Shown here one piece after another: positions 19-41,556 of a stretch of DNA of 42,619 nucleotides (within the stretch, counting starts at the first letter, position 1; every line of letters starts with the position of its first letter). The DNA comes from Gluconacetobacter liquefaciens. Its GTDB lineage: Bacteria; Pseudomonadota; Alphaproteobacteria; Acetobacterales; Acetobacteraceae. The stretch covers positions 1 through 42,619 of the forward strand of contig NZ_QQAW01000019.1 of the NCBI RefSeq assembly GCF_003350405.1, given 5' to 3'. A program made the translations under genes and the position numbers. The notes beneath the pieces were generated by a model. That model was given only the letters and a program-made list of their open reading frames with translations. It searched no databases and was not told where the DNA came from.

Positions 19-95
19 CGCGGGGTGGAGCAGCCCGGTAGCTCGTCAGGCTCATAACCTGAAGGCCGCAGGTTCAAATCCTGCCCCCGCAACCA
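19..95 (+). tRNA. Initiator tRNA-fMet (CAT), ICE integration target
   Basis: The 77-nt cloverleaf folds fully, with the CCA end encoded and a CAT anticodon in a CTCATAA loop. Three features mark it as the initiator rather than elongator Met tRNA: the unpaired C1 x A72 at the top of the acceptor stem, the A11-T24 pair in the D stem, and consecutive G-C pairs at the base of the anticodon stem. The anticodon stem is TCAGG/CCTGA, so the first of the usual three G-C pairs (29-41) is A-T here. The last 13 bases (83-95) recur at 41532-41544 and form the attachment core. The gene remains complete after integration. Confidence 0.97.
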
Positions 96-1749
96 CTGAT
101 ACCGACACTCCCGTGAGCCCAGCTCCGGGAGTGTTTCTTTTTTCAGCCTTTCCAATGGCTTGCCGTTCGATCCAGGTCAGGATCGTCCCCAGTTCCCCAT
201 ACAGCATCGCGTCGATCTCGCCCCGGTTTGGGCCGGGAGTGAGCACGACCTTCTCGATTAGTGCTCGCAGCGCCTCGGCGGCTTCCAGCCGTTCCTCGGG
301 GCGGTTGAGAGCGTCGGTCAGGCGGCCGACCTTGCGAGCGTAGATGGCGGAGGTACTCGGCAGCATGTCCGGTACATCGTTGGGAACGTCGGAGAGCAGG
401 GACGTCAGTTCGGCCTTGCGGGCTTCGAGCGTGTCCATCTCCGTCTTCATACTGGGATGGAACATCCCTTCCTTGATGGCTTCGATGATGCCCCGGATCT
501 GCTTCTCGACTTTTACCTGTTCCACCTGCCAGACATCGGCATTGGACCGGCGCTCGCGGTTGAGCCGATTGGTCTCCTCGGCATAGGCGCGCATCGCCTC
601 GGCCGCGATCTCGGGCGCCATCATCCGGTCCTTGAGACCGGAGAGCACCCGGCGTTCCAGATCGGGGCGGGGGATCGTCCGACTGTTGGTGCAGGAACCA
701 TTGGTGACGTGGGACGAGCAGGCGAAGCGGTCGGAACCTCGCAGCGTGTAAGGGCCTCCACACTGGCCGCAGAACAGCAGGCCAGACAGCAGGGATTTCG
801 GTCGGCGCGTGCCGTTGAGCCGGTTGCGCTTGTGATGCGCCCGCACGGCTTCGGTGACGTTGACGTATTTCTCGGCAATGACGCTCTGTCGCGCCTTGGT
901 CGCCTGCCAGAGTGCGTCATCGACGATCCGCAGATCGGGAACCTCTGTCACCACCCATTCTGATTCTGGATTGAGGCGCGAGACGCGCTTGCCCGTGGAC
1001 GGGTCTTTGACATAGCGCTGACGGTTCCACACCAGCCGGCCGACATACAGCTCATTGTTGATGATGCCGGTGCCGCGCTTCACATGGCCCCGGATGGTGG
1101 TATCGCTCCACAGCTTGCCCTCGGGGCCGGCGATGCCCTGGTCGTTCAGGGCTTTGGCGATAGCGCGTGGACCGATACCGGCGGCGAAGTCGCGGAAGAT
1201 GCGGCGGATGATCTCCGCCTGATGGGCATCGATCTCTCGGTCGCCCCGGATCTGCTCGCCTTTGGCGTCGAACTGCCGGACGACGCGATAGCCGTAGCAC
1301 AGCCCGCCGCCGGATTTGCCGTCCTCGACCCGACCGCGCAGGCCGCGATGGGTCTTGGCAGCGAGGTCTTTGAGGAACAGCGCATTCATCGTGCCCTTGA
1401 GGCCGACATGCAGTTCGCTGATCTCGCCTTCCGCCAGGGTGACGATCGGCACGCCGGCGAATTTCAGGTGCTTGAACAGGGTGGCGACATCGGCCTGGTC
1501 GCGGGAGATGCGGTCGAGTGCCTCGGCCAGCACGATGTCGAACCGTCCGGCCTGGGCATCCTGCAACAGGGTCTGGATGCCGGGACGCAGGATCATGCTG
1601 GCGCCGGAGATGCCCGCGTCCTTGTAGGCACCGATGACTTTCCATTTCTCGCGTTTGGCGTGTTCGCGGCAGATGCGGAACTGGTCCTCGATCGAGGCGT
1701 CGCGCTGGTTGTCGGACGAGTAGCGGGCATACAGGGCGACGCGGGTCAT
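52..1749 (-). CDS. Large serine recombinase (integrase) of the ICE
   Basis: This 565-residue site-specific recombinase probably catalyses integration into, and excision from, the tRNA-fMet gene. The N-terminal resolvase domain has the YARYSS motif, with Ser11 the likely nucleophile. A recombinase domain follows (about 160-290), then a zinc ribbon with two CxxC-like pairs (about 325-355: FCGQCGG and later CSS...C) and a helical C-terminus. The size and order are typical of large serine recombinases. The gene reads toward the chromosome and its last codons are antisense to the tRNA gene. The ending GAGFEPAAFRL is host-supplied, and the TGA stop is the complement of bases in the anticodon loop. 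In the excised circle the tail should differ. A close homologue survives only as a 3' fragment at 41489-41704. Confidence 0.93.
   Translation of the reverse strand: MTRVALYARYSSDNQRDASIEDQFRICREHAKREKWKVIGAYKDAGISGASMILRPGIQTLLQDAQAGRFDIVLAEALDRISRDQADVATLFKHLKFAGVPIVTLAEGEISELHVGLKGTMNALFLKDLAAKTHRGLRGRVEDGKSGGGLCYGYRVVRQFDAKGEQIRGDREIDAHQAEIIRRIFRDFAAGIGPRAIAKALNDQGIAGPEGKLWSDTTIRGHVKRGTGIINNELYVGRLVWNRQRYVKDPSTGKRVSRLNPESEWVVTEVPDLRIVDDALWQATKARQSVIAEKYVNVTEAVRAHHKRNRLNGTRRPKSLLSGLLFCGQCGGPYTLRGSDRFACSSHVTNGSCTNSRTIPRPDLERRVLSGLKDRMMAPEIAAEAMRAYAEETNRLNRERRSNADVWQVEQVKVEKQIRGIIEAIKEGMFHPSMKTEMDTLEARKAELTSLLSDVPNDVPDMLPSTSAIYARKVGRLTDALNRPEERLEAAEALRALIEKVVLTPGPNRGEIDAMLYGELGTILTWIERQAIGKAEKRNTPGAGLTGVSVSVVAGAGFEPAAFRL
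83..95 (+). other. attL core of the integrative element
   Basis: The sequence GCCCCCGCAACCA, the 3' end of the tRNA, is repeated exactly at 41532-41544. It is followed by the inner arm CACTGATACCGAC (94-106). That arm is the inverted partner, with 12 of 13 matches, of GTCGGTATCGGTG at 41512-41524. This is the arrangement expected when a serine recombinase splits an imperfectly palindromic attP between the two element ends. Which bases are the actual crossover dinucleotide cannot be told from sequence alone. Confidence 0.8.
105..144 (+). terminator. Rho-independent terminator downstream of tRNA-fMet
   Basis: The stem ACACTCCC/GGGAGTGT (105-112 with 127-134) has an inner GAGC/GCTC stem (115-118 with 122-125) and is followed by a T-rich run ending near 144. 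It is oriented to terminate the tRNA transcript, yet it lies inside the integrated element, within the antisense 3' coding end of the recombinase. The element therefore appears to bring its own terminator for the tRNA. A near copy follows the second core at about 41551-41591. Confidence 0.75.
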
Positions 1750-1762
1750 GGGATGCTCCTTG

Positions 1763-2143
1763 TCAGGCGACCTTGTCCATCCGGCTCGGCCGGATCAGCA
1801 CCTCGGCCGAGATGCCGAGGCCATCATGCAACTGGCGGATCATGTCGATCGACAGGCCGCGCTTGCGGTTCAGTACGTCCGCCACCCGGTTGCGCGGGCC
1901 GATCATCGGTTCCAGATCCTTGCGGCTGAGACCCTGCTGCTCCATGCGGAAGCGGATCGCCTCGACCGGATCGGGCGGGTCGATCGGATGGTGTTTCGCT
2001 TCATAAGCGTCGATCAGGGTCGCCAGCACGTCGAGTTTGTCGCCGTCTGGCGTGCCGCTTTTCGCTCCCCACAGGCGCCCGACCTCGTCGAGTGCTGCGT
2101 CATAATCCGCCTCGTTGCGGATGGGCTTCAGATCAGCCATCAT
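1763..2143 (-). CDS. higA: HigA-type antitoxin (XRE helix-turn-helix)
   Basis: This is a 126-residue protein with an N-terminal extension and a C-terminal XRE-like helix-turn-helix (about 66-115). The segment LSRKDLEPMIGPRNRVADVL is typical of HigA antitoxins of the COG5499 type. It should bind and neutralise the HigB product and repress the shared promoter. Its start overlaps the end of the toxin gene by 11 bases, so translation is probably coupled. Two ATG codons are adjacent at the start, behind GGTGGAG; the second gives slightly better spacing. The toxin-first order is characteristic of higBA. Next to the integrase it would act as an addiction module against loss of the element. Confidence 0.85.
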   Translation of the reverse strand: MMADLKPIRNEADYDAALDEVGRLWGAKSGTPDGDKLDVLATLIDAYEAKHHPIDPPDPVEAIRFRMEQQGLSRKDLEPMIGPRNRVADVLNRKRGLSIDMIRQLHDGLGISAEVLIRPSRMDKVA

Positions 2144-40331: not shown

Positions 40332-41320
40332 TCAAGTTGGATGATCAGGATAAATTCTACCGTATTTTGTGTTTAGATGGAGGGGGAATTCGAGGAGTGT
40401 TTCCCGCAGCTTTTCTTGCCCGGCTTGAAGAGCATCTCGAGCATCCGATCGGTCGATACTTTGATTTGATCGCAGGCACGTCGACCGGTGGCATTATAGC
40501 TGTTGGCTTGGGTTTGGGGCTTTCTGCAAACGAGATTCTAAAACTTTATGAGGAGCGTGGACCCGCAATCTTCGATCAGCAGCACGGCATTATTCGTAAT
40601 TGGCTCCGTCAGCGCTGGAGAAGCGCGCGGCACTGGGTTGGCAGTAAATATGAAGCGACAGAACTCCGCGCTGCTCTCGACGGCATTCTCGGAGAACGGC
40701 GTCTTGGGGAAAGCGCAACTCGACTGCTTATCCCTGCGTGGCACCCGATATTGGAACGCGTTTACATCTATAAGACGGCCCACCATCCGCGACTGGAAAC
40801 TGATTTTGGGCAGTTGGCAGTAGATGCAGCGATGGCTACTGCTGCGGCTCCAACATTTCTGCCTGCACATAATACGTCTGATCAAGTCGAGCTTATTGAC
40901 GGTGGTGTTTGGGCCAATAATCCGATTGGCGCAGCGGTGGTCGAGGCGGTCGGAACGCTGGGATGGCCCGCCAAGAGCCTGAAGGTGCTTAGTATCGGGA
41001 CGATCGAAGAAGTTAATGCCCCGCCTCGATGGACTGGAAAATTGCCGATGGCTGCTCATGTCACTCGGCTGTTCATGGCAGGTCAATCTCATAGTGCGCT
41101 CGGCGCTGCAAAAATACTTACAGGAGATGGTCACGGCCACCAAGCTATCTGGCGTGTAGACCAGATAGCCCCGTCAGGTCGTTACACATTAGATAATGCT
41201 GGTCGTATTGCTGAAATGAAGAATCGCGCAGTTGTGGAAGCGCGTGAGAAGCTTCCTGAACTTCGACGGCATTTTTTTGATAAACCTGCCGATACATTTA
41301 TTCCGTATCATCCACTATGA
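40328..41320 (+). CDS. capV: Patatin-like phospholipase, CBASS effector (CapV-like)
   Basis: This is a 330-residue patatin-fold phospholipase. The oxyanion motif is DGGGIRG (17-23), the nucleophile Ser52 is in GTSTG (50-54), and the catalytic Asp is in LIDGGVWANNP (about 191). In CBASS the second messenger activates this enzyme to degrade the cell membrane and abort infection. It is the last gene of the operon and overlaps the E2-like gene by ATGA. About 170 AT-rich bases separate it from the recombinase remnant and attR, so the defence block is at the extreme right end of the element. Confidence 0.92.
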   Translation: MIKLDDQDKFYRILCLDGGGIRGVFPAAFLARLEEHLEHPIGRYFDLIAGTSTGGIIAVGLGLGLSANEILKLYEERGPAIFDQQHGIIRNWLRQRWRSARHWVGSKYEATELRAALDGILGERRLGESATRLLIPAWHPILERVYIYKTAHHPRLETDFGQLAVDAAMATAAAPTFLPAHNTSDQVELIDGGVWANNPIGAAVVEAVGTLGWPAKSLKVLSIGTIEEVNAPPRWTGKLPMAAHVTRLFMAGQSHSALGAAKILTGDGHGHQAIWRVDQIAPSGRYTLDNAGRIAEMKNRAVVEAREKLPELRRHFFDKPADTFIPYHPL

Positions 41321-41511
41321 GTCTGCTTGTGGGGGCAAGTGAATATTGCAAATCAAAGGCTCCGAACGAGCTTTCAAAGTAATAATAACTGAGAATTATA
41401 TATAGGATAACGCCTCCTTGCAGTCATTTTTTACATAGAGATCTTAAGGGTCATATTTTATTTTTGATAAAGATACTTGCTTATTCGCCTAAATAGAAAA
41501 TGCTAGTGATT

Positions 41512-41556
41512 GTCGGTATCGGTGCTTGCAGGCCCCCGCAACCAACGATTCCGGCA
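41512..41556. other. attR and junction to a second element
   Basis: GTCGGTATCGGTG (41512-41524) is the outer arm. The core GCCCCCGCAACCA (41532-41544) is the exact repeat of the tRNA 3' end. ACGATTCCGGCACTC follows, resembling the inner arm at attL (CTGATACCGACACTC, 96-110). The junction therefore reads as right end of this element, core, left end of a related element. This is the structure expected when two elements integrate in tandem at one tRNA site. Confidence 0.75.

Follow-up and report, generated by a model that had tools for sequence, protein, structure and literature searches.

Serine recombinases that act at tRNA genes are rare but known. Reported targets are tRNA-Met (PMC6536676, PMC3925955), tRNA-Leu and tRNA-Ser (PMC3218068) and the transfer-messenger RNA (tmRNA) gene (PMC3146451), and Paracoccus aminophilus phi-Pam-6 (vB_PamS_Pami6), termed functional or active, is the sole serine-recombinase phage with a predicted integration site in PMC6536676 (PMC3925955, PMC6536676). 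IntM of the tripartite Mesorhizobium integrative and conjugative element (ICE) was considered as a further met-tRNA precedent and dropped, since IntG and IntM are described as tyrosine recombinases (PMC5882170). Here we analysed 42,619 nucleotides of Gluconacetobacter liquefaciens DNA (NZ_QQAW01000019.1, assembly GCF_003350405.1; the whole stretch is called the window below). We conclude that the window very probably holds a 41,449-bp ICE whose own large serine recombinase inserted it into the 3′ end of a gene for initiator tRNA (tRNA-fMet). As read from the sequence, this conclusion is carried by the ends of the element, the symmetry of its attachment site, the genes that it carries, a relative with a matching right end, and the same geometry with other arms in other recombinase classes. 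An earlier note on this DNA had called a tRNA target unusual for serine recombinases; the target is indeed rare, but precedents exist, tRNA-Met in Paracoccus among them.

Sequence inspection placed the core GCCCCCGCAACCA at 83-95 and again at 41532-41544, with a spacing of 41,449 bp. The left copy is the 3′ end, CCA included, of a tRNA-Met (CAT) gene predicted by ARAGORN (19-95), so the earlier claim of a core matching the tRNA end and repeated 41.4 kb apart proved exact. When the inner flanks were joined (41512-41544 with 96-106), they gave a 44-bp attachment site for the circular form (attP), consisting of GTCGGTATCGGTG, 18 bases and CACTGATACCGAC. Counted from the centre, its half-sites match at 18 of 22 positions, and the outer 13 bases of the arms match at 12 of 13, which bears out the palindromic arms that the note had proposed. 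Random pairs from the window did not reach these values, either for 13-mers at 12/13 or for 22-mers at 18/22 (0/200,000 each). The half-site pattern CCCCGCAACCANNGATACCGAC with at most 3 mismatches matched the window three times (85-106 +, 41512-41533 - and 41534-41555 +) and 100 shuffled sequences not at all; a chance palindrome was ruled out as an explanation by the shuffle and random-pair controls. This element thus has an attP of two half-sites in inverted orientation, each about 20-25 bp long, around one centre, and the same centre recurred in related elements of other recombinase classes, which we named A, B1, B2, B2b, B3 and C in this analysis, the window's element being class A. Across the whole family the core is the 11-bp CCCCGCAACCA; the two preceding bases agree here and not in all other elements, so that the 13-bp core holds for the window and not for the family.

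The right end was supported by a relative of the element in a second genome of the genus (G009, contig 22 of 40,488 bp). This relative, 39,882 bp from core to core, is 89% identical over window positions 25526-41544; its homology ends at 41544, and another recombinase class then begins. Related elements ending elsewhere would have spoken against the earlier note; its right end at 41544 is backed by this relative, and the crossover itself can be placed only within or at the edge of the core. A 97% identical recombinase also lies at a tRNA in G004, where matches of more than 150 bp extend only to window position 12918 (39.9 kb compared). Beyond the right core copy, the DNA at 41532-41704 is 91% identical over 173 bp to 1495-1667 of the window's own recombinase gene. 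What follows 41544 is therefore the terminal part of another class A recombinase gene, and on this alignment the right junction joins element to element rather than element to chromosome. At three tRNA-fMet sites to which no recombinase is linked (L008, which belongs to the window's own genome, L140 and L253), a flank beginning with TGAATCCC comes right after CCA, and the flank that follows the class A right end at an occupied site (L153 in G012) resembles it. Judged by these flanks, the chromosome resumes directly after CCA at the compared fMet sites.

Stacked elements were also observed elsewhere. In G011 (contig 1, 1789523-2019875), one tRNA-fMet is followed by a stack of about 230 kb, made up of three elements (classes B1, B2b and C) and a 66-bp unit. 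The 66-bp unit, enclosed by two core copies, is similar in four genomes (L180, L013, L144 and L174 in G004, G006, G011 and G022), and more core pairs at this spacing occur in G002 C15 and G006 C17; perhaps it is a minimal relic consisting of two attachment arms alone. Exclusion between elements of the same class was suspected since full A/A junctions are scarce, and no claim is made of it, as 21 classified element-element junctions included 2 same-class ones against about 4.2 expected from the margins.

The loci of related recombinases, surveyed as the best 80 of 103 from named records, pointed to the same target. Forty-five adjoin tRNA-fMet and 19 adjoin a core copy without the tRNA pattern, 64/80 together; 8 more end within 150 bp of a contig edge, and 8 have neither tRNA-fMet nor core. 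Four of the latter (L093-L096, from Oceanibaculum, Parvibaculum and others) have an inverted GGTTGCGGGGG motif next to them, possibly a second target type, and four (L061, L065, L089 and L107) are partial or unexplained. The recombinases of L093-L096 are about 59-60% identical, and their loci yielded no tRNA gene. Recombinases 95-98% identical to the window's adjoin the tRNA in several species. A search for class A, B1 or C right ends gave 81 in 48 of 395 genomes of the order (1 match in the backward-read control), and 27 of 40 genomes gave a match to the recombinase at E 0.001, the own genome included and weak matches counted. Five of ten plasmid loci (L287, L288, L289, L292 and L295, on large plasmids of Ketogulonicigenium, Sphingobium, Ensifer, Paracoccus and Novosphingobium) have a tRNA-Met with a related recombinase adjoining. 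All 615 phage records with a match were below 60% identity. Together with the G009 right end and the geometry shared by different arms, the 64/80 loci at tRNA-fMet or core support the attP of a tRNA-fMet-specific large serine recombinase that the earlier note had predicted.

Could a tyrosine integrase have inserted the element instead, with the serine recombinase as a passenger? The 3′ ends of tRNA genes are described as typical targets of tyrosine integrases (PMC4383910), and six Phage_integrase (PF00589) matches occur in the genome (G000), one of which (contig 21, 1222-1701) lies about 0.8 kb from another tRNA-fMet copy (401-420). The window's contig (C19) contains none of the six and so does not have the make-up of a tyrosine-integrase island, 64 of the 80 serine recombinase relatives sit beside fMet or a core copy, and the end arms, taken as a set, follow the serine recombinase class. 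We therefore regard insertion by a tyrosine integrase as highly improbable.

The arms were compared across classes using half-sites listed for CCCCGCAACCA places, drawn mainly from four genomes. Many of these places lie in genes, match by chance and lack symmetry; the element junctions share one centre just before CCCC. The arms are GATACCGAC in class A, GATACTTGCGAT in B1, TGAACTTGCGAT in B2 and GATTCCCACA in C, with B2b and B3 also distinguished. For eight elements with both ends, 4 of 40,320 permutations reached the observed match sum, which is the count allowed by swapping identical arms within a class. By class (six classes), only 1 of 720 permutations, the observed pairing itself, reached the sum, and none of 300,000 random permutations did so when G009, three B1/B2 elements and the 66-bp unit were added (13 elements).

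Recognition of the two sites was compared with the LI integrase model, in which the zinc-domain motifs are described as lying 5 bp nearer the centre in the chromosomal site (attB) than in attP (PMC3783163). Forty-four distinct arms matched the tRNA-side attB half best at a shift of 5 (0.400, compared with 0.247 after shuffling and 0.230 for 36 empty flanks); smaller peaks lay at -2 (0.344) and 4 (0.342). The shift had first been spotted by eye in class B2 and was then tested over 14 shifts, and the arms are interrelated, which inflates the z-scores. Class B2 carries the signal (10/13), and class C reaches 3/13. These results support the 5-bp shift in part, for some of the family and not clearly for class A.

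Crossover is predicted at or inside the core, and the centre predicts a dinucleotide formed by the first C of CCCC and the base preceding it, which is CC in both window sites. At the right junction sites (attR), the base before CCCC is T in 4/12 sites of hosts with only T tRNAs, 3/31 of mixed hosts, 0/37 of C-only hosts and 0/1 of a host in which no tRNA was found, that is, in 7/43 sites of hosts having a T tRNA. T-only and C-only hosts differed (P 0.0023), as did hosts with any T and C-only hosts (P 0.013); sites within a genome are not independent, and draft genomes may miss tRNA copies. The pattern fits dinucleotide matching partly, and the mismatches in T-only hosts possibly reflect gene conversion among operons, tolerance, or a crossover deeper in the core.

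Several observations weigh against our interpretation. Class A itself scores 5/13 at shift 5 and is best at shift -2 with 7, and 8 of the 12 sites in T-only hosts carry C, mismatching the host tRNAs before CCCC. With 2 mismatches allowed, the 13-base arm alone was found 4 times against 1.59 expected and so is not rare. A single arm is sometimes nearer to another partner than to its own, in that B2 (in G000 and in G012), B3 and the 66-bp unit match another left arm better (own against B1 left arm: B2 of G000 9 vs 10, B3 10 vs 11, 66-bp unit 11 vs 14), and the A and C arms are much alike (13 and 12). Since the pairing is best as a set but less clean in single rows, the arms appear from these comparisons to be class-related rather than strictly private. 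In addition, no directionality factor was identified, and no excised circle was found, the full class A attP having no exact match in viral contigs (right end 1 match, left end 0). With at most 3 mismatches, the class A attP occurs at 5 places in the 395 genomes, which look like element-element junctions.

The lack of a circle in the 395 genomes and viral contigs, and the broken element that is the right neighbour, would also suit an element that integrated as described and has since become fixed and no longer excisable. The open recombinase frame, the presence of both half-sites and the spread of 95-98% identical recombinases beside the tRNA of several species speak for continued mobility, and we consider fixation possible but not the likelier outcome.

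The proposed course of events is as follows. Recombinase dimers would bind the circle's palindromic attP as well as the 3′ end of the tRNA, which serves as attB. One crossover within the shared CCCCGCAACCA or at its edge, with the geometric centre just before the first C, would then give attR and a left junction (attL) with an intact tRNA. We infer that this recombinase performs the reaction, with crossover at that step, and that the element may be excised and transferred. The element supplies a terminator-like hairpin behind the tRNA. The rebuilt tRNA could be reused by later arrivals, and elements would therefore stack; the present element would have landed in front of an older one of the same class, since broken by an insertion sequence (IS).

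The surroundings of the target were determined at eight distinct fMet places from near-complete genomes scanned with Rfam. A 5S rRNA gene lies directly upstream of fMet at seven, the eighth (L122) being N-masked upstream and giving no match, and 23S was found farther upstream at five of these seven places, while the remaining two (L136 and L021) are masked there. Only 18 bp of the window precede the tRNA, consistent with a break of the assembly at a repeated operon, and by analogy an rRNA operon probably lies upstream of this copy too. Fourteen genomes of the genus have 1 to 5 fMet copies each (exact pattern), and four rRNA operons are reported for G. diazotrophicus PA1 5 (PMC2765452). Such near-identical paralogues behind rRNA genes might recombine, and facing arrays in G012 (968015 + and 987775 -) suggest that rearrangement has occurred; the core repeat could then stem from homologous recombination or rearrangement between operon copies, with the palindrome incidental. 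The right copy comprises the last 13 tRNA bases only and has no operon, and symmetric arms, which such an event does not predict, recur with other sequences in other classes, so that this origin seems extremely unlikely. Directly after the tRNA, folding gave a bulged hairpin, which a simple terminator scan of positions 1-400 did not report; our guess is that the stem rule of the scan caused the miss. The element's hairpin may terminate transcription of the tRNA. By eye, fMet sites without elements seem to have a hairpin with a T-run too.

Table 1 Positions of the features of the window
Feature	Positions	Strand	Basis or remark
tRNA-Met (CAT), initiator; 3′ half is the host-derived half of attL	19..95	+	ARAGORN
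Large serine recombinase, 565 amino acids	52..1749	-	Resolvase PF00239, Recombinase PF07508, Zn_ribbon_recom PF13408, all above cut-off
Left core copy GCCCCCGCAACCA	83..95	+	family core CCCCGCAACCA is 85-95
attP right half-site, within attL	85..106	+	pattern match, 0 in 100 shuffles
Hairpin and T-run right after tRNA, likely intrinsic terminator, element-supplied	103..144	+	93-145 folds at -23.4 kcal/mol, z -6.65
HigB-like toxin (2133-2456) and helix-turn-helix (HTH) protein, probable antitoxin (1763-2143)	1763..2456	-	Pfam
HTH_17 protein, RepA-like RPA, DUF2840, S26 peptidase, SLT transglycosylase	8446..12042	+	Pfam
MobA/VirD2-like relaxase with DUF3363	12122..14332	+	Pfam
VirD4/TraG coupling protein	20979..22967	+	Pfam
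HTH protein (23469-23714 +), BamHI-like restriction enzyme (23642-24418 +), methyltransferase (24415-25692 -)	23469..25692		
Conjugation genes: VirB11-type ATPase, TrbC/VirB2, VirB4-type, TrbL/VirB6, VirB8, VirB9 (CagX), VirB10 (TrbI), DUF2274	25656..34954	+	
IetA/IetS-like AAA ATPase and S8 protease (defence)	35164..38546	+	
CBASS-type cyclase, E2-like protein, patatin phospholipase effector (defence)	38640..41320	+	
attP left half-site, at right junction	41512..41533	-	pattern match and half-site comparison
Right core copy, right end of element	41532..41544	+	
Right half-site (41534-41555) and recombinase 3′ remnant of second, same-class (A) element	41534..41704	-	
rve-type transposase of IS interrupting second element	41804..42472	-	Pfam; junction near 41705 judged by sequence and remnant alignment

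A Pfam scan covered 40 of the window's proteins, out of 155 open reading frames of at least 80 amino acids (Table 1). One pair of att sites encloses integrase, relaxase, coupling protein and type IV secretion genes, and by this predicted gene content the element is an ICE. The recombinase gene is at the left end, transcribed towards the tRNA, and its frame continues through attL into the antisense strand of the tRNA; the closest solved chain to its product is the TP901-1 integrase (residues 3-96, E 3.7e-12). An open reading frame amid the conjugation genes (29551-30453) had no Pfam match. Window positions 5551-8445 and 14308-18292, which include LysR regulators, a metallo-beta-lactamase-fold hydrolase and an aldo/keto reductase, have no counterpart in the related G009 element and are therefore probably exchangeable cargo. 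The IetAS-like and CBASS-like defence genes neighbour each other at the right end of the ICE (35164-41320).

The open recombinase frame was followed at 73 distinct recombinase-linked right ends, a number that includes a few short core-to-core units which are not true recombinase ends. Sixty-five read through the core to an outside stop, and another 2 are still open at the end of the contig. The remaining 6 stop inside, L077 two codons short of the core edge and the other five 27 to 172 codons short of it; among these, L005 is the remnant in the window that the IS has cut, and L027 has an internal TAG. All open cases read the core in one identical frame (67/67). Beside a tRNA the recombinase tail is 14 residues (33/33), and elsewhere it is 14 to 54. 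In the circular form the window's recombinase would have 569 amino acids and end in VVAGACKHRYRQSLAFSI. It is conceivable, although we think it rather unlikely, that the stop codon is absent by design and that the tail is swapped at each crossover (14 residues from the antisense of core and tRNA when integrated, 18 from the core and the left attP arm when circular), so reporting the state of the element; if so, the tail could help to set integration against excision. The conserved frame may merely reflect shared ancestry and fixed att geometry. The same lack of an own stop is reported for dsiB of Dehalococcoides, a function of which the authors doubt and leave open in the passage concerned (PMC3146451).

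This kind of integration is already known; the fMet-specific serine recombinase family, its arrays behind fMet and the set of attP classes are undescribed in the open-licence PubMed Central literature that we searched, and may have appeared in print elsewhere. In this family a specialisation of serine recombinases for initiator tRNA genes is seen clearly and repeatedly, these genes being located at rRNA operon ends in the relatives examined. Several recombinase classes with different attP arms and one attB form a natural data set on how serine integrases read the two sites, and the family is a source of integrases for acetic acid bacteria. The insertions may also explain many draft contigs that start just before a tRNA.

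The Listeria A118/LI integrase targets comK. It resembles the window's system in a two-half-site attP, zinc-ribbon contact at the outer end of each half-site and a central dinucleotide, and differs in its protein-gene target and in the 5-bp attB shift, which is not clear for class A (PMC3783163). The Mycobacterium actinomycete integrative and conjugative elements (AICEs; tRNA-Leu) and phage phi-RSM1 (tRNA-Ser) likewise use a serine recombinase to enter a tRNA gene, which their authors call rare, but they are actinobacterial AICEs or a filamentous phage and use other tRNAs (PMC3218068). In the ssrA islands of Dehalococcoides with DsiB, too, a serine recombinase acts at an RNA gene's 3′ end, the islands occur in tandem and the gene end forms direct repeats; their recombinase gene overlaps attL and finds its stop codon only outside the island, and both this and stacking also apply to the window's element (PMC3146451). 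The islands target the single-copy tmRNA gene (ssrA), whereas the window's element targets tRNA-Met, and they are described as mobilizable without conjugation genes and carry a second, small serine recombinase (PMC3146451). Phi-Pam-6 (vB_PamS_Pami6) combines a serine recombinase with a tRNA-Met (CAT) site in an alphaproteobacterium, as the window's element does (PMC3925955, PMC6536676). It is a phage and not conjugative, and the passages on it in these papers mention neither a palindromic attP nor stacking.

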